Shown here one piece after another: positions 24,101 to 54,146 of a stretch of 64,000 bases of DNA (the first letter of the stretch is position 1; the number at the start of each line of letters is the position of its first letter). Made by a program: the position numbers and the translations under genes. The notes below the pieces were generated by a model. It had not been told where the DNA came from. It searched no databases and saw nothing but the letters and a program-made list of their open reading frames with translations. The stretch is from Aphelenchoides besseyi (Eukaryota; Nematoda; Chromadorea; Rhabditida; Aphelenchoididae): positions 5,890,001-5,954,000 of the forward strand of contig JAMPIQ010000003.1 in assembly GCA_024699855.1 (NCBI GenBank), in the 5' to 3' direction.

Positions 24101-24287
24101 CGCCAACCACAAGGACAAAGCATCTTGTACGGTACTCCGCTTAACCTCAACGGAAAAACTAATAAGCGACATTAACTTCTAATCGAATGTCAAGTCATTA
24201 GTTTAATTCGAAAATTTGCATAAAATCGATCTTTCCCTTTCGGATTGCTTGTTGAATGACAGTCTGCAAAGAAGTCTGTTTTCAACG
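21140..24287. other. Largest gene-poor region, 3.1 kb
   Basis: Apart from a strong hairpin at 21383-21457 I find no supported gene. Overlapping open frames on both strands at about 21740-22520 and 23180-23540 coincide with relatively GC-rich patches and have no family features or splice continuity. The final kilobase is probably upstream control sequence of the ABCG gene at 24288. Confidence 0.4.
21383..21457. ncRNA. MicroRNA precursor-like hairpin
   Basis: The arms GAGAAGAGACGTGGT...GAAAATA and TATTTT.ACCACGTCTACTCTC pair over about 22 bases with two mismatches near the base and a one- or two-base bulge, closing on a loop of roughly 20-30 bases. Length (75 bases), near-continuous pairing and isolation from genes fit a pre-microRNA. 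The hairpin can form from either strand and I do not recognise the arms as a known microRNA. A palindromic regulatory element is the alternative. Confidence 0.4.
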
Positions 24288-26629
24288 ATGTCGGTAACGC
24301 CGTCTCGACCGTCGAAAGCCACAGCGCCGACGTCCAATGTCTCAAAGGCGCCATCTCAATCGGCCAGTCAGAATCCTACTGGAACACGTGAACAAGCGGA
24401 GCTGATTCCAAGTTCGCTATCGCCTACGGAATATGATGAAGCAAGCGGAATTCATTCGGTCTACGTTACTTGGGACGATGTTGCTGTGAAATCGCGCAAA
24501 ACCAACGTTCCAATTCTCAAAAGTGTCAGCGGTATTGCTCGTCCGGGTCAAACTTTGGCGCTCATGGGTGCAAGGTAAGTAGTTCGTTTGTGTAAACACA
24601 ACAGTAATCGATTACAGCGGAGCTGGAAAAACCACGTTGTTGAACTTCCTCATGCAACGCAACATGAAGGGATTAAAAATGAGCGGTCAAATTCTGTACA
24701 ATGGAAACACGTTGACGAATGGTCGTGGACTACCACGTATTTCCGCTTATGTCCAACAAGAAGACCTATTTGTGGGCAATTTGACAGTTCGTGAGCATCT
24801 GAGCATTCAAGCTTCGCTTAAAGTACCGAAAGCAAATCGCAAAGAACGTCAAGAACGAGTTAACAGTGTAAACTTCGACTTTCAAAAAATCGACCGAAAT
24901 TTCTTGTTTTCAGTTGATTCGCGATCTTAAACTCGAACAATGTGCTCATGGACGAATTGGTGTGAGTGGCGTACGTAAAGGAATTTCTGGTGGTGAAGCG
25001 AAACGTCTTGCCTTGGCTTCTGAACTTCTCAGCCATCCATCCATCTTGTTTTGCGATGAACCGACCACCGGTTTGGATTCGTATTTGGCATCGGAACTGG
25101 TCGGCTTGTTAGATGAGGTGAACAACAATACTAATACTCGGAATGAATTATTCAGTTTCAGTTAGCCCAGAAGAACATGACAATCATTTGCACGATCCAT
25201 TCGCCTTCATCCGAAATTTTTTGCAAATTCGATCAGGTATATCAAGGAATTTTTGTGTTCTATTTAATGGCTCGTTTAGGTTATGTTTTTGGCAGAAGGA
25301 CGTGTTGCTTATTGGGGAACACCGGAACAGTGCTACAATTTCTTTGGTGGCGCCGTCAGTTCCGATATTCTCATATTACCGAACCGTAATTTGGCCCATA
25401 TGGTTATTGAGGGATTGGCGATTCATCCGGAACGCGTCGAACAAAGTCGATTGAAAGTTGGTCGTATTTGTGACAAGTTTGCCGAATGGCAAAAACAACA
25501 ACCACCTATTGACTTGGAAGATGCTGCAGAAGCACGTAAGCTTCGCCCGTTAATCGGATGTCGCAATGTTCCACTTCATCGTCTTTTCTTTGCAATCTTT
25601 CGTCGTACTCTTTTGGATATTATGCGTAATCCATCGCTAGCACGAGCCAAATTCTTTCAGGTATCTTTAGTTTTATTGAATTCGATTCAGATGTCAATTA
25701 CAGAAAGTTTTCATGGGCGTTTTTCTTGGTCTTCTCTATTTGGACAGCAAACTCGATCAGGATGGAATCATCAGTCGTAAAGGTGCACTTTTCTACTACA
25801 TTTCCGAACTTACATACGCGACCATCTTCGGTATTCAAACCTTTTTGCCTCAACACTTTCCGCTTATGGCACGTGAATATCACGATGGTTTATATCCGGT
25901 TTCAATTTATTACATTGCTACGGTAAAAAAAGTTAGTCAAATAGTTAATTACGATCTACAGATTCTTGCATATTTGCCATTGTTCACGTTGGATGGAATT
26001 GTAATGGTCACGATTAGCTACTGGATGATCGGACTTCATAATACCGCATCAACATTTTTCACAACTTTACTTACGACTATTTTGGTCGAATGGTCAGCGG
26101 TTAGTGTTGGAATAATGGTTTCTGCGGTAAGAAATAGCAACAGCAACTTTGAGTTAACATCTGCAATCCAAGGCTGCTCCATCGTACGCATTTGCGGTTT
26201 CAATTTCTGGACCATTGCTCACAATGTTCTCTCTAACTGGCGGTTTATACACGAACGTTGCAAAGGTGATTGTTCTTATTTTTATAATAGATCTACGTAT
26301 TGCTTTTTAGATGCCGGTTTGGATTCGTTGGATTCAATATTTGAGCTGGTAAGCATCGAAATGAAATATTGTTCAGTGATCTTGATCTTAGGTTTCGTTT
26401 TGGTTACGAAGCTCTGATTGTGAACGAGTGGCAACACTATCCGTCTATCACTTGTGAACCCAAACATAGCGGTGCTATTTGCGAGGATTCGGGAGACGAT
26501 GTGATTCGTAATCTGAACTTTGAGAAACACAATCTCTACTTCAACGAAATTTGCATGTTCTTCTACATTATTGGTGCTTACATTATCGGATATGTCGGAT
26601 TGGTAGTTCGCGTTTTGTGGGCTCGTTGA
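24288..26629 (+). CDS. ABCG (white-type) half-transporter, intact
   Basis: An ATP-driven half-transporter, NBD first then six membrane helices, which works as a dimer. After a Ser/Pro/Thr-rich N-terminus of about 45 residues the nucleotide-binding domain has Walker A (GASGAGKTTLL, split by an intron at 24575-24617), the Q-loop (AYVQQEDLFVGNLTV), the signature GISGGEAKRL, Walker B ILFCDEPTTGLD and H-loop histidine CTIHSPSSEIF. All catalytic motifs are therefore present. The membrane domain runs from about 25660 to the end and includes GLLYLDSKLDQDGIISRKGA, LSWFRFGYEALIVNEW and the ABCG extracellular cysteines before the last helix. Introns are 38-55 bases. Substrate is unknown; C. elegans WHT proteins are the nearest group. 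Ends tail-to-tail with BPNT1. Confidence 0.92.
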
Positions 26630-46214: not shown

Positions 46215-48533
46215 TTATCTGTTACAAAATATTTGAGCTCGTTTGACCGTTAAAAAGACGAAGAAAACCGATGTTACAAGAAGTCCAAGAGCTACAATAA
46301 AGATTCCTTGCCATTGCTCGATAGGTCGAAGCGGTTCAGGTAGAACTTCCGCGAGATAATCGGTACCCGATTGCCATCGACAGAACTCGTCGGTTTTGGC
46401 GAACGCTTGTTGTTCTTTTCGACGGCAACTGGGAATGCGAGTTTGATTTAAAAACTCGTGGAAAAGAATCAAATTAGCAAATCGATCGGTACTTAAAGTT
46501 GCGGCATATGTTAGAATTTCATTTGTTGAAGTAAACGACTGGTAGCTCCTAGAATCCAAGTGTTATTATCATCTTTCGTTCTACGGTTTTACTTCAGAAA
46601 TCCGCCAGCAATTGTGCTCGACACGCTTGCGAAGAGAATAGCAGTGATAAGAACTTTGTGACAGTCAGTCATCAATGTGTAAAGAGCGAGAACGAGTAGT
46701 TTATAGCACAGATACGTGCAACTGATGGACAAAATGAGTGTTATTAGATTTTGGGCAGTAAAAGCCGGATAGACGATCCTGCAAGTGTGATTTACTGCGA
46801 ATCTGTTTCCATTAATCTACCAAATAAAACTGATAGCCGACAGAATGATAGAAAAAAGATCTAAAATCGCCGAAGATGCAATGAACGCCAAAAGCATCAA
46901 AACTGCGTTGTACAAACTCTCCGAAACTTCCCAGAACATTACGTGTCGTAAATGTTTAACTAAACTGTCGTTTTGATTTGAACGAAACATTTAACGAACA
47001 TGTAAATGAGGTGCAGAAAGTGGACGAAAGTGCCGTGAAGAAGTTCAGAGCGAAGATCGTTCCGGCAGACGATTGGGGCGAATGTTTGTCGTTCGAATAA
47101 AAACGACCACCGAAAGATGCCACAAAGAGAATAGCAATCAAAAGAATAAATTGAGCAAATATGGTCGAATATGAGCGAATGAAAACAAGTAGATTTCGAC
47201 TAAAACCAACTTTCTATTACTCCTTCAGAGAAACCTAATCACCTAACCAAAACCCAAAATCGTCTGCTCTGCGTAGGTGCTCCGAAATAACAAGACAATA
47301 CGGGAGTATCACTTGGTAATTGTTGGACGTAAGCCGACAGATCCAAAGCTGAACGCCGTTTCTGCAATTGTTTGAACTGCGGTTATCTGATGACTTCACT
47401 TCAAACCTTAAAGACGTCAACTAAGTTTGCTGCTTTGCTTTGTGTCTCTGCGTAACTCTCCGGTGTCTCTCGATCGACGGTTGCGAGAGAAACTGAATGT
47501 TCGATATTTGAAATGCACTCTAAATACTTACGGTAATAGACTGCTGGATTCTCTGTTATTGGACATCGATATCCAATCTGACTGAAGTAGTGGGGCATGA
47601 ATCTGCTCGGACCTAAACAATTATACAGTTGAATGACATGTACTTGTTAGTACCCGAATAAACAACTTCGCCATAAAACAAAAGTGTTAGTTGTCCTAAA
47701 AGTTGATAGACATCCGAACGCGGACAACGCATCGTAACGATTGCCATTCGTGAGTAACGACGAACATGTTCACGCAGCGAAGAAATTAATTGATAATTAC
47801 TTAAAGCATCCAAATCCAAAAGTGCATCATCGACAAGAATAAGAACTGAAGAATTAAGTCAACAATCTAAAGAACACAAAAACAAACCGGGATCTTTGAT
47901 TAGATGTAAAACAAGAACCAAACGTCTTCGAGCACTTTCCGTCAAATCGCTAACTAAACGTTGAGAGTGAAGAGTCAAATCAAACTGTTGCATTAACGTT
48001 GAACCCTAAAGCTTTTTTGCTTTAATACGTCGCGCGAAGGAACATACCCGATGAGCAATAGCTTCGGCGTTGCAGTTTAATGAAAGTTGCGAGTGAAAGC
48101 GAACGGTCTGTTCAACAGTCAGAAACTCAAGTAGATGAACACCAAAATTTACCGATCCACACAAACTCGTAAAGCGTTCATCTATTTCATTCGGAATAAT
48201 GTTGGTTTGCCAAACTTACTTGTCAGTGGCTGTCCGTTCAAACTGATTTCTCCGCTTACATTTCCCGCTATTCGACCAGCAATCACATCCAAAAGTGTCG
48301 ATTTGCCCGATCCTGCACTTCCCATTACTCCATGAACTTCGCCGTGATTAACTCGAAATGTAACTTCATTCAAAAACTGTGCCGTTAGTGGTGGTGAGTA
48401 CATAGTCGTGAACCTAAACTATGAAGTCGAATATGGTGACCACGAATACAAACCATGATCCTTTCGAAAAAGTACGAACAAAAGACAAATTCTTGACTTC
48501 TAATGCAACACCTGAACCGTCCGTCGTTTGCAT
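46215..48533 (-). CDS. ABCG8-like half-transporter with eroded ATPase motifs
   Basis: A sterol-transporter-type ABCG half, expected to dimerise with the ABCG5-like product encoded head to head. The NBD starts VALEVKNLSFVR; Walker A is intact (GSAGSGKSTLLDVIAGR, then SGEISLNGQPL). Other motifs are changed: Q-loop SVNFGVHLLEFLTV lacks Gln, signature LSGGE reads DLTESARRRL, Walker B LILVDDALLDLD has Asp for the catalytic Glu, and the H-loop is TMRCPRSDVYQL with Arg for His. The switch MPHYFSQIGYRCPITENP and TVDRETPESYAET favour ABCG8 over ABCG5. Membrane helices occupy about 47140-46250. The start is the ATG at 48533, seven bases after CGCAATTTCAG; frames further upstream lack an in-frame ATG. 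Exon edges in the membrane half are uncertain. Confidence 0.82.
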
Positions 48534-49517
48534 CAGGAATCTGAAATTGCGGTGAAAAAATAACAATTGTAACTGTGAACACGAATCCACTTTCTCTGTG
48601 GGCTTAGAATCTTTCGGCGAGTCAAGAGCATCGACGGGATATCGAAATGCTGAGATGACAGCAATTTGCGATTCGAAATGCGATCGCCGCGCTCGAGAAG
48701 TTCGGACGTGTCGGACGGCAAAAACTACGTGACGACAATGAGGAGCATTGCCGGTGAATCGTTTTGACCTCAACTGCTCGCCATTCAAGACGACAATTGA
48801 GAAATGATGATGGTCATCTCGAAAAATTTATGTGGTTTCGCCGGAAAGATTTCGCTTCTGTCTTATTGTTTGGATAAGCAAATAGCTTGTGATTCGACTT
48901 CTCATTTCTAGCCGGTGCTCATTTTGCTACGCCAATTTTACGCTTCGAAAGTTTTGTATTTTAACCAAGAACGTTCGTTCATGACGACTGTTGTCCATTT
49001 ATCGCCAATTAACTGCGATTGATTGATCATACTCGAGTTATTTTACGCTCAACCATCCGATTAGAGGATGTTGAATCACGATCCTCGACAGTTACATTTC
49101 ACTTCTCCACTACATGCCGACTACTTGGTGAGGTTTGAAGACTGTTTTTAAACGACAATAAAAAGCCGGAATGATCTTTTTGCGGATATCCGTTAACACA
49201 GCAGGTTGTCGATTCATTAGTCAACAATTTTTGGTGCCTGCGGCGGGCTGATTGACGTTTCCAACCGCGCACTAATGTCCGTTAGTGGTGTTTAAATCGG
49301 TTTGAACGACCATTGAAATCGATTCACTGATTCGTCTCAACGGTTGAAACTTTTCTCAAAAGTCGTCGGTTGATGGTCGAAAACAAATCATTTTCACAGT
49401 CAATTAAATTTTATTGTTTCTTCAATCTTATTGCTGTTCGAAAACTCCTTTACTCGTTAATTTCTTTCTGCGCTTACACTTCGTTTTCAGAGCGATACGT
49501 TGGATCAAGCATCAGCG
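48534..49517. promoter_or_regulatory. Shared divergent promoter region of the ABCG8/ABCG5-like pair
   Basis: Just under 1 kb separates the two start codons. Acceptor sequences sit at both edges (CGCAATTTCAG before 48533 minus; TTCGTTTTCAG before 49518 plus). The interior has several unsupported open frames. I see no specific factor site that I would defend. Confidence 0.45.
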
Positions 49518-52502
49518 ATGGCTGAGTCTCATTCCATTTCCGTCGGCGATTCTCAGCATTTGGAACGAGTGGAGTCGCCGCTTTCACCTCCATTTCCACG
49601 ACCCACTCACGCACTTTCAATTCCTAAAGGTTTACCACGAACTCATATAGCGCCCGGAAGTTTGTTGGACGAAATCTCTGCAGTTGCCGCCGCCCACTCT
49701 GATTTTCGACATGAATGGGACTCGAGGTTTGTTGATTCGAAAGCAACAATTAGCATCAATTAGCTTTCAGACCACATCATCGACTCATAAACATGCCGAA
49801 CTCGCCGCCGAGCACTACAACTGAGCCCTCAACTGATGAGATGCATTACGCCGAATCGGACATTCCGTTGCCATTACCTCCCTTCCCGGGGAATTCTCGA
49901 TTCGAACCGTTTGGTCGTCATCGCTATTCACACCAACAGTCAAAATCGAAACGTTGTGTTAGCGATGAAGATGACGAAGAGGAAGAGAGACGCCCGCAAA
50001 AACGCCGTCGACATCATTCGACTGCCAGTCGAGTTCCGGCTGAATTACCATCGTTGAAACGACATCAATCGCATTACTTTTCAAATGTCGATCTTTTCCA
50101 ACAACAAGACAGTAATTTTAATTATTTGAAATATGCCAAAGCATCCGATATTCGAACAACTCCATCGGCGTAAATTACTGAGTGTGTGAGAAGCGGTTAA
50201 TGAATTTTTTAGTAGTCCGCATATTCGAATAATGGACTTGTGCTTTGACTTCGATCCAAGATCTCAATTCGATCGTTTAATGTTGCGATCTGCGGAACAT
50301 CATCGTCTGTTGCATCATCTAACCTTTGAATTGTTCGCTGGCGACACTCTTGCTCTTCTTTACACGGCAGGTAATCCACTCTCTTAATTGCTTGTCTATA
50401 CTGATTTTAAGAAAGTGAAATGCAAACGTTCATTCGAGTACTTGCGCATTCTGAACTACCACAAGGACGAGTTCATGGTGTGTTGGAAATCAACGGTCAT
50501 AAACTGAAACCACGACAGTTTGGGGAACGTGTTGCACATGTTTCAAGTTCTTCGTTACCGTCTGGCCTTACCCTCAGTGAACATCTCAATCTCTATTCCT
50601 CTTTAGTTCAACCGGCAACCACAGCTTTTAAAAGACAAGAGACGGTAATCGTGAACCATAACGCAACGATAATTGTTGTTTTTCAGATAGAACAGCTAAT
50701 TCAAGGGCTTGCTCTTGCACCATTTCGAACACAACTCGTTGAAAAATTGGGTCGGAACGAAGTTCAACGTTTGAAGCTCGCTTCAAAGATGCTTCTCGAT
50801 ACGGGTATGAGGTCTATTAATCAAATCAATAATCCACTCCAGATTTACTGTTATGTGAAAACATTTTACGTGACATGGACGTCTATGATGCTGCGTTCAT
50901 CATTGATTTTGTACGTGATTGGGCCCAACGCTTAAAAAGAATTGTAATCGTCGCAATGAATCCACCAACGCCTGAAATTCTGACGATGTTTGGGAAAAGT
51001 AGCGTTCAAATTAGGTCGATCTCCGTAAGATGTTCTTTTAGCTGCTATTCTCACTTGTGGTCGAATGGTCTTCATGGGCGAGAGTGGAGAAATGTCCGGC
51101 TATTTTCAATCGATCGGCTACAGTTGTCCGCCGTTCAAGAATCCTTGTGATTACTACGTTGATCTGGTGACACACGATGTGTTGACCGTCGAATCGGCAC
51201 GTGAGTCAATGGCACGAATACGAACGTTGGCCGAGATATGGACACACAAAGATTCTCCGCTAAATCCTCCACGCGGAAATATCGTATCTCCGAAAGTGCA
51301 ACATGCTGGTCTAATTGCTAAAATCTTTGTTTTGTATAAGTCAGTTCTAAATAGTCTTCGCAATAATACAAGTTCAGGTTATTTTGGTGTCGTATTTTAA
51401 ATCGACCTTTGTCGATTTGTTGGGAAGTTGTGGTCGCAATGATGATGTCTCTTTTGTTGGGTTGGATCTTCTTCCAGTTGCCATTGGATCGTCGGTCGGG
51501 AATTAACGATCGTCAGGGATTTCTTTGCTCACTCCTTTTAATCTGTCAACTGCCGCTGACGCTCGCTGGAACACGAACCGGTAAGTCATTTTTCCTGATG
51601 CTTAACATTATTCGTTTTAGTTATTCTTGATTGGCCATTACTCGAACATGATCTCGCCTTTGGAGCTTATTCACGACGTGTCTATTTAATTTCAAAGGTT
51701 GATTTTTAACAGTTGGGATGTTCTAAGCGAAAAATTTTTAGTTACTGTTTGATTTACCTGTTGCGACGATCTCCGGGCTTGCTTACGCAGTTCCGGCGTA
51801 CATATTGACAAACCAAAATCCAATAGTTGAATCGGAAATAAGCGTTCTACTTTCATTTGTTATAGTGGTTACATTGAACTATCTTCTTGCTCGTTATGCT
51901 GCTTGGTGTTTCGCGCTGTTTGCGCAATCCGTGCTTACTGGAGCTTTACAATACTGCAAGTTTATGAGCAACTACACTTATTCCCATCGTATTTTAGGTT
52001 TCACGTTCGGCCTTCTTCTTTTGTTTTCCGGATTCCTGATTCATCCTGAAGACCAGCTACTATCGAACGTTCAGGCGTATAATCCTGTCAAAGTTCTTGG
52101 TGCCGATTTGCTTCGTGCAAGTTTTCTTGGTCGTTCCAAAACTTCGGAATTCATGTCGTCAACTTTCGATTTGCGACGTCCGGGTAATCGCACTGAAATC
52201 TTTATTGACTGTCAAAAGAAAAAGATACTTGCAACAAAGTTGAAACAAGTAATCGTAATTATCTTCATCATATCTAAACTCTCAATATTCAGATTCCAAT
52301 TTATACGGTTGCAAAATGTCTTCAAACAACAGGGTCCGAAGCGTTCAAGTTTTCTGGTTTTCTTCCCGCTTCTCTCGACTTCGAACATAGCGGTTGGCTT
52401 ATTCTGAGCGTCGGTTTAATGCTGTCGATTAGTCTAATTGCGGTTGTTCATCAACAGCATCGAACGAAACGAAATCCAGTGACCATTAAAACATTCAAAT
52501 GA
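49518..52502 (+). CDS. ABCG5-like half-transporter with degenerate nucleotide-binding domain and long N-terminus
   Basis: The partner of the ABCG8-like gene. The first 210-220 residues are an extension rich in Pro, Ser and charged residues, with the block SDEDDEEEERRPQKRRRHHS. The NBD begins near 50230 (MDLCFDF). Walker A is gone (LALLYTAESEMQTFIRVLAH), the Q-loop is AHVSSSSLPSGLTL, the signature is EKLGRNEVQRLKLA, Walker B is LLLCENILRDMD with Cys for Asp, and the H-loop is AMNPPTPEI with Asn for His. The fold is still clear: INGHKLKPRQF, KVAILTCGRMVFMGESGEMS, IGYSCPPFKNPCDYYVDL match ABCG5. Six membrane helices span about 51410-52470, with FSGFLIHPEDQL late. The ATG is 27 bases after TTCGTTTTCAG. 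The reading frame is intact throughout, arguing against a pseudogene. Confidence 0.85.
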
Positions 52503-52669: not shown

Positions 52670-53864
52670 TCACGTTTGTGCTATGCGACAGCTCGGCTTT
52701 CTGCGAATTGAAGCACGAGAATCCCGAGGCGTATTAATCAAAGCACCACGTGTTGTGAAACTCAACGATGTCTTCCGGGCACTAATAAACAGTTTTCGGG
52801 AATAGACGCGTATTTCGTGATGCTTTAAAAGATAAATAAAAACCATGATGCAAGAGTTGAATGCTTCGCCGATACCAAACAAAATAGACATATGACCTCT
52901 AAGAATTTCGCTTCCGTTCAAGACCTAAAACAATGTTATCATGTGTGAATGTTAAGTCAACTTACAAATACCAAAATAGAAAGAAAGATCGGAACACAAC
53001 AGAAAATCAAGTAACAAATAACAATCAAACTTATTGAAATAAACGCCCGCTGTTGAACTCTGAGTGTATGAAGATGTTTCGAGTATTTTGATGTCAATTT
53101 CTGATTCAACAAACGAACAGCACGTACATAGAGTCCTTTAATAGACGGTTAATTGGTCAAGTTATGCTCAAGGAACTAACCAATGACAAAGAACGAGTTA
53201 AGGAATCCACAACTCAACCACACCGCCTGATAAGTCGTCGTCGAAGCTGCACCAACCGTACACTGTTTGACTGTTTCATCGGAAACATTCCAAAAAGATA
53301 GTAACGAAAAGAAAACTCCAAAAACAATACAACTGCCCACAACAATCGTAATTCTTATCTAAAACTTTTGTTATAATTTCAACTTGATATAACAACTTAC
53401 CCTCAGGTTTATCATGTAATGGCACGGCCAACGAACTGCACTATATCGATCCAACGCCAAGGCGAACAAAAGTACTTGACCAAAAACTACTCCAAACATT
53501 TGAATTTGTCCGACGGCCAAACATTGAATTCGGTGATATCCTTTCTCGCCGGTAACCAATTTACTGTAAATTGCACGCACCAGGATACCCAAACCTGAAG
53601 TTGTTTGTTATTGATCGATTCGCCCTTTGTCAGCTTACCAACTATACATCCACTCACTGATAATAACGATATCAGAATGTTGGATTGAATTCGACGAAAA
53701 GCCGGAAACTTGAGGAAGATCAAGATAACCAGAATGTTGCTCAACACCGCCAATATCCCAACGATTAGACGAACAAGAAACACGGACAGAAACCCATCCG
53801 GATCGTCATAATCGGACATTCGACTGCGATTGTCGGCAAAGAAGATATGATCGAAATTGAACAT
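52670..53864 (-). CDS. Rhodopsin-like seven-pass receptor (Srsx-type)
   Basis: A G-protein-coupled receptor of about 330 residues. TM1 (LVRLIVGILAVLSNILVILI) has the class A N in SN. TM2 is ILISLLSVSGCIVG. TM3 ends with the DRY motif in LFALALDRYSAVRWP. TM5 lies near 53170-53230 and TM6 is RAFISISLIVICYLIFCCVP. In TM7 FNSCIMVFIYLL replaces the usual NPxxY with NSCIMVFIY. A basic, Ser-rich tail follows. This pattern fits the nematode serpentine receptors of the Srsx/Srw type, and a peptide or chemosensory ligand is likely. Five or more exons with short introns; start ATG at 53864-53862. Ends 167 bases from the ABCG5-like stop, converging. Confidence 0.82.
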
Positions 53865-54146
53865 CTTTTAATTGGTCAGTTTCGTGAAACAACAAATCCA
53901 CGGAATAAACAAACTTCTAGAAACGGAATTACAAAATTCTAAGCATTCGAGGCTTTTTTTTGGCGCTTTCAAATATTCGAAGACAAACAAAAATGCTAAG
54001 AGTGGAAAGACAGTGGGATTAACGCAAACACAAACTCGACCAACGGCATGGGGAATGTAAAGAAATTTAGAAATTAAAAACAACGGTCAACGTGGATTTG
54101 CGAGTGAAAAACGTGTTGTCCGCCGGCTGAGTTTAAAAGTCGACAA

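Follow-up and report, generated by a model that had tools for sequence, protein, structure and literature searches.

The 64,000-nt window analysed here (Aphelenchoides besseyi, assembly GCA_024699855.1, contig JAMPIQ010000003.1, positions 5,890,001 to 5,954,000) carries at 46215–52502 two intact, divergently oriented ABCG half-transporter genes, which belong by descent, as judged from their sequences, to the ABCG5/ABCG8 sterol-pump pair. Neither of their composite ATP sites is complete, and judged by sequence the pair does not qualify as an ATP-driven pump. We consider it probable that an old ABCG5/ABCG8 pump pair has here become an ATPase-dead heterodimer with another job than pumping. A first-pass annotation of the window had described a head-to-head ABCG5/8-like pair with two dead-looking ATPase sites, open reading frames and signs of selection. 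Gene models with a 984-nt spacer and motif alignments bear out this part of its interpretation; its two gene labels have to be exchanged, and it had left out that the loss is common to the nematodes sampled and, for ABCG8, to arthropods.

Human ABCG5/ABCG8 needs only nucleotide-binding site 2 (NBS2), which combines Walker A and B of ABCG5 with the signature of ABCG8 (PMC8403869, PMC7756502). In the A. besseyi pair, NBS2 has kept Walker A and lacks the Q-loop Gln (replaced by Phe) and the opposite signature, its catalytic Glu has become Asp and its switch His Arg; the signature, catalytic Glu and switch His of a complete sterol-pump site are lost. NBS1 has neither Walker A, where YTAESEMQT stands in place of GxxGxGK[ST], nor the opposite signature, and shows Glu for the Walker B Asp, Asn for the catalytic Glu and Asn for the switch His; the Q-loop Gln is also absent from the ABCG8-type protein. 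The Pfam domain ABC_tran scores 62.9 bits in the minus-strand protein and is unreported for the plus-strand protein even at E ≤ 10. The residues listed by the first-pass annotation were found as it gave them (minus strand: Walker A kept, Q-loop Gln, signature, catalytic Glu and H-loop His lost; plus strand: Walker A, Q-loop Gln, signature, Walker B Asp and H-loop His lost), with the catalytic Glu to Asn change on the plus strand to be added. There is no stop or frameshift in either gene, and the 24 exons (12 + 12) are in frame together. Hidden exons restoring the motifs can be ruled out, the introns being just 38–45 nt long and the relatives also lacking the motifs. Nor is the loss due to chance, since the plus-strand protein shares 94% identity over its full length with a publicly available A. 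besseyi protein and aligned relatives show the same losses. Both chains are half-size, with the nucleotide-binding domain (NBD) before the transmembrane domain (TMD): the minus-strand protein contains ABC_tran at 41–183 and ABC2_membrane, under its cut-off, at 329–508, and on the plus side the order is given by a fold match across residues 202–847 of an A. besseyi relative. The Pfam scan, relative search, motif counts and human-structure scores of the plus-strand protein were obtained with an earlier 854-aa model, whose motifs are identical in the 841-aa one.

The first-pass annotation had called the minus-strand gene ABCG8 and the plus-strand gene ABCG5; structure scores, profiles, the names of relatives, an arthropod ABCG8 clade and constrained trees lead us to the reverse. 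The solved structure that best matches the minus-strand protein is human ABCG5 (148.8 bits, vs. 129.1 for ABCG8), a profile of its nematode relatives ranks human ABCG5 (267.9) over ABCG8 (231.7), ABCG1 (174.3) and ABCG2 (157.6), and its A. bicaudatus and Toxocara canis relatives carry the public name ABCG5. In constrained trees, this clade could be held with ABCG5 (p 0.54) or with ABCG8 (p 0.25), neither being rejected, and the unconstrained quick tree grouped it with the ABCG8-type clade with a support of 76, which is not significant. ABCG5 is the favoured assignment of the minus-strand gene, which the tree does not force. The plus-strand protein by itself does not discriminate among human structures (ABCG5 89.4, ABCG2 89.2, ABCG8 88.4). 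Two results count against an ABCG8 label: the profile of its nematode relatives scores human ABCG5 (227.7) above ABCG8 (212.3), and its A. besseyi relative best matches human ABCG5 in fold, with one chain per entry shown. On the other side, the gene falls into one clade with arthropod ABCG8 (Shimodaira–Hasegawa-like approximate likelihood ratio test, SH-aLRT, 100), and Tribolium ABCG8 scores human ABCG8 (164.1) above ABCG5 (144.0). Relatives are named ABCG8 in A. besseyi, A. bicaudatus and Ascaris, and a tree constrained to place the clade with human ABCG8 is slightly better than the free one (p 0.53, not rejected), while one that places it with human ABCG5 is worse (p 0.074). The tree comprised 41 rows, was built by a quick method and had as outgroup a paralog that is a rough exon join. 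On these comparisons, the plus-strand gene is an ABCG8 relative. Membership of the pair in ABCG5/ABCG8 agrees with the divergent linkage at the locus, and ABCG5-type and ABCG8-type matches lie on contigs of equal size in 7/7 nematode species having both, where they are known without gene orientation. No second, working pair was seen in the genome (47.4 Mb, 45.9 Mb of it in three contigs) by a six-frame search scoring the best candidates only (44 and 12), the next matches outside the pair reaching 38.1 and 35.5 bits.

The decay is old and not peculiar to this genome, as the aligned relatives indicate. In nematode ABCG5-type proteins (13 rows from Aphelenchoides, Bursaphelenchus, Halicephalobus, Panagrolaimus, Acrobeloides, Toxocara and Pristionchus, window included), signature and switch His are lost throughout and Asp has replaced the catalytic Glu in 11/13, Toxocara and Acrobeloides having Glu; Walker A is intact in all nine rows that cover it. 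The 21 nematode ABCG8-type rows, also with the window, come from Aphelenchoides, Bursaphelenchus, Panagrolaimus, Panagrellus, Acrobeloides, Steinernema, Ascaris, Toxocara, filariae, Pristionchus, Mesorhabditis and Caenorhabditis auriculariae. Walker A Lys, signature Gly-Gly and switch His are absent from all of them, as is the catalytic Glu, which is Asn in 20 and Asp in one. Trichinella and its kin were not among the matches listed for either type. Left out of the ABCG5-type table were P0003, a chimeric model, and P0008, a second B. xylophilus model; the ABCG8-type table omits second models of species already present (P0123, P0127, P0141, P0142, P0146, P0147, P0150), partial ones (P0148, P0149) and sequences not from nematodes (P0153–P0155), while P0151 and P0152 were counted with the arthropod type. 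Among the best 120 of 307 arthropod-type ABCG8 matches, in which all rows with a species name are arthropods and the remainder carry none, the Walker A Lys and signature Gly-Gly are always absent, the catalytic Glu occurs once, with Gln there in 113, and the switch His is kept in 98. The third P-loop Gly is replaced by Glu in 31/31 ABCG8-type rows of a mixed alignment and in 119 of these 120 arthropod-type rows (Asp in the other); we regard this Glu as a conserved replacement and not as drift.

The ABC domains nevertheless remain under constraint, according to several comparisons. In 19/19 comparisons the ABC domain shows higher conservation than the membrane domain, which, with the invariant replacement residues, agrees with the selection suspected by the first-pass annotation. 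The plus-strand NBD is identical to that of A. besseyi at 284/288 residues, and its GC-AG intron, read as protein, matches at 5/14, a rough neutral yardstick. The dead ABC domain is predicted to fold, and an ABCG fold is predicted for the ABCG8-type relative; for the ABCG5-type relative, human ABCG5 is the top fold match, a weak support given a poor predicted structure (predicted local distance difference test, pLDDT, 59.6).

We propose that the ABCG5 and ABCG8 relatives most likely form a heterodimer with an ABCG fold and no ATPase cycle. On the ABCG5 side, ATP may still be bound as a static ligand; the ABCG8-type domain, with the invariant Glu in its P-loop, would be a folded, non-nucleotide docking platform, and the membrane part would act not as a pump but as a sterol or lipid sensor or regulator, as a passive conduit or as a regulatory subunit of other half-transporters. 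Of these roles, we rate that of a sterol or lipid sensor or regulator highest, while giving it somewhat less than an even chance; the non-ATPase sterol receptor, channel or regulator envisaged by the first-pass annotation is compatible with the sequence data. ABC proteins in non-pump roles have precedents in SUR1 and CFTR, in which the ABC fold has turned regulator or channel, although these differ from the nematode pair in belonging to ABCC, not ABCG, and in keeping one working ATP site.

Several observations weigh against an ATPase-dead heterodimer, or against sterol as its ligand. The catalytic Glu of the Toxocara and Acrobeloides ABCG5-type proteins makes weak hydrolysis at one site possible in these species. 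Tyr432 of human ABCG5, which matters for cholesterol transport, is absent from 13/13 nematode ABCG5-type rows as aligned in this fast-evolving membrane region; because this residue of the sterol pump is missing, sterol is uncertain as the ligand, which may not be cholesterol, and an unaltered path for sterol becomes less likely. The 19 domain comparisons lack independence, as the window sequence enters each of them. Because ABCG proteins in general show stronger conservation of NBDs than of TMDs (PMC7756502), the comparisons indicate constraint that was kept, not unusual constraint. An RNA interference survey of all Tribolium ABCG genes gave phenotypes for four only (PMC3560195), not including TcABCG-9C/9D, which from their size and divergent adjacency would be the ABCG5/8-type pair. 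On the other hand, abcx-1 of C. elegans, linked to the ABCG8-type gene by name alone, is given in a review table as one of the life-extending clones of Chen et al. 2007, who screened larval-arrest clones with knock-down begun at L4 (PMC3468884); if it is the orthologue, a dead transporter would be needed in development.

Alternatively, a degenerate pump could still be active if one site turned over slowly, with ATP bound at the preserved ABCG5 Walker A, catalysis by non-canonical residues and continued export of sterol or lipid; the Walker A and Walker B Asp of the ABCG5-type protein and the catalytic Glu of the Toxocara and Acrobeloides rows agree with this, and one degenerate site is tolerated in human ABCG5/8 and yeast Pdr5 (PMC7756502). 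However, the ABCG8 signature that completes NBS2, required in human ABCG5/8 (PMC8403869), is gone in 21/21 nematode and 120/120 listed arthropod-type rows, and the switch His is absent from 13/13 ABCG5-type rows, which makes continued pumping very improbable in our view. One or both proteins could instead be regulatory or trafficking subunits that dimerise with active ABCG half-transporters of other kinds and modulate their work. In favour of this, the window also contains a canonical ABCG gene (24207–26417), other ABC2-type membrane domains are present in the genome, and some ABCG proteins have more than one dimer partner (PMC3560195). Yet a partner swap leaves the ABCG5-type protein's own site incomplete, with its catalytic Asp and switch Arg, and head-to-head linkage with joint retention points to joint action of the two proteins; we hold this arrangement to be unlikely.

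The same low probability attaches to a passive conduit or scramblase, through which sterol or lipid would move down its gradient with a gate no longer driven by ATP. The membrane domains are intact and an ABCG fold is predicted for the ABCG8-type relative, but these domains evolve faster than the NBDs, and Tyr432 is lost in 13/13 ABCG5-type rows. That the two genes are slowly decaying pseudogenes, as the lost catalytic motifs might suggest, is scarcely credible and already contradicted by 24 in-frame exons, by the near identity of the NBD to that of A. besseyi as against the intron read as protein, and by replacement residues invariant across nematodes and arthropods.

The closest known system remains the human ABCG5/ABCG8 sterol exporter, likewise two NBD–TMD half-transporters from a divergent gene pair and the best match in sequence and fold. 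It differs in having one working site (NBS2) and one degenerate one where both are broken in the nematode pair, whose ABCG8-type protein also bears an N-terminal extension of ~200 residues. Far upstream of the NBD, ascarid and arthropod ABCG8 proteins (P0131, P0132, P0151, P0206) share DLHxW(S/T)IYRQNL and, later, FGLPRV, of which only GLPR is left in Aphelenchoides; this may be an old docking site. ABCG8 of arthropods, where it pairs head-to-head with ABCG5 (D. melanogaster CG31121/CG11069, Tetranychus, Daphnia; PMC3724490), belongs to the same clade and has lost Walker A and signature too, but mostly has Gln at the catalytic Glu and keeps His, as counted above, whereas nematodes have Asn and no His. 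In Pristionchus pacificus, the protein named abcx-1 is a relative of the ABCG8 type and shows the losses found in the window gene.

The arthropod pair was thought likely, in the mite, to function as in humans (PMC3724490), a view of sterol transport repeated later (PMC7339416), while its functions were also described as still to be identified (PMC4587908). In passages of papers we met no report of ATPase-motif loss in nematode or arthropod ABCG5/8, the nearest being a table for the whitefly in which ABCG5 has an NBD whereas ABCG8 is entered as TMD only (PMC5405539). Relatives of ABCG5/8 exist in many nematodes, in contrast to the reported failure to identify C. elegans orthologues (PMC3724490). 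Loss of the ABCG8 catalytic motifs in both phyla, with a dead domain still constrained, offers an example, open to testing, of an ABC pump that has taken on another role. Nematodes cannot make sterols, and the case falls in animals that need them in the diet. Insects, unlike vertebrates, cannot make them either (PMC6801466). A bolder and, to us, doubtful possibility is that the pump became an ATPase-dead heterodimer before the nematode–arthropod split, its ABC domains serving as a protein-docking or sensing module, a scenario that the state of arthropod ABCG5 would have to fit. If true, the genes that are annotated as sterol exporters in arthropods and nematodes would encode a sterol or lipid receptor or regulator across the sterol-eating Ecdysozoa.

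Table 1. Features of the ABCG5/ABCG8-type locus (window coordinates)
Feature	Position	Strand	Description
ABCG5-type half-transporter gene	46215..48533	-	12 exons, 620 aa, 11 GT-AG introns of 38-45 nt
ABCG5-type exons 1-6	48454-48533, 48220-48413, 48048-48181, 47888-48005, 47654-47845, 47532-47612	-	
ABCG5-type exons 7-12	47407-47492, 47243-47361, 47000-47199, 46821-46959, 46593-46778, 46215-46548	-	
ABCG5-type Walker A	48290..48322	-	intact, GSAGSGKSTLL
ABCG5-type signature position	47916..47945	-	lost, LTESARRRLV
ABCG5-type Walker B/D-loop	47805..47843	-	Asp kept, catalytic Glu to Asp, LILVDDALLDLDA
ABCG5-type H-loop	47712..47741	-	His to Arg, IVTMRCPRSD
Divergent intergenic region	48534..49517	.	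984 nt between the two start codons
ABCG8-type half-transporter gene	49518..52502	+	12 exons, 841 aa, introns of 38-44 nt (10 GT-AG, one GC-AG)
ABCG8-type exons 1-6	49518-49726, 49771-50169, 50213-50370, 50412-50644, 50687-50804, 50843-50998	+	
ABCG8-type exons 7-12	51042-51339, 51378-51580, 51621-51697, 51742-51955, 51998-52248, 52293-52502	+	
ABCG8-type P-loop	50361..50434	+	lost, YTAESEMQTFI, intron inside
ABCG8-type signature position	50747..50776	+	lost, LGRNEVQRLK
ABCG8-type Walker B/D-loop	50845..50883	+	Asp to Glu, catalytic Glu to Asn, LLLCENILRDMDV
ABCG8-type H-loop	50947..50976	+	His to Asn, IVAMNPPTPE
ABCG8-type NBD-membrane linker	51122..51178	+	strongly conserved, SCPPFKNPCDYYVDLVTHD
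ABCG8-type GC-AG intron	51956-51997	+	public A. besseyi model reads through

The public A. besseyi models of the pair (P0003, P0122, P0123) look faulty: a PCI-domain protein is fused to that of ABCG5, with exons skipped, and those of ABCG8 either read through the GC-AG intron or skip exons preceding it. Acceptor-like sites, TTTCAG and TTTTCAG, that precede the two start codons by ~7 and 28 nt are putative spliced leader (SL) trans-splice sites. The genome holds 18 SL1-like RNA gene matches of 38–44 bits, all under Rfam's cut-off, on contig C1 (4.36–4.85 Mb) and contig C2, those on C1 arranged in five divergent pairs ~330 nt apart. The canonical ABCG half-transporter of the window, on the plus strand ~20 kb from the dead pair, has Walker A, an SGGE signature, DEPTTGLDS and the H-loop His, and is a useful internal control. 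Small contigs with ABC matches in long stop-free frames (C7, C10, C14, C15, C19, C25, C27) look bacterial and give the impression of contamination or a symbiont. The only COX1 match (contig C30), with TGA read as Trp, lies on a 2500-base contig. At 53367–53867 of the window, on the minus strand, hydrophobic exon-like frames give the impression of a seven-helix receptor.

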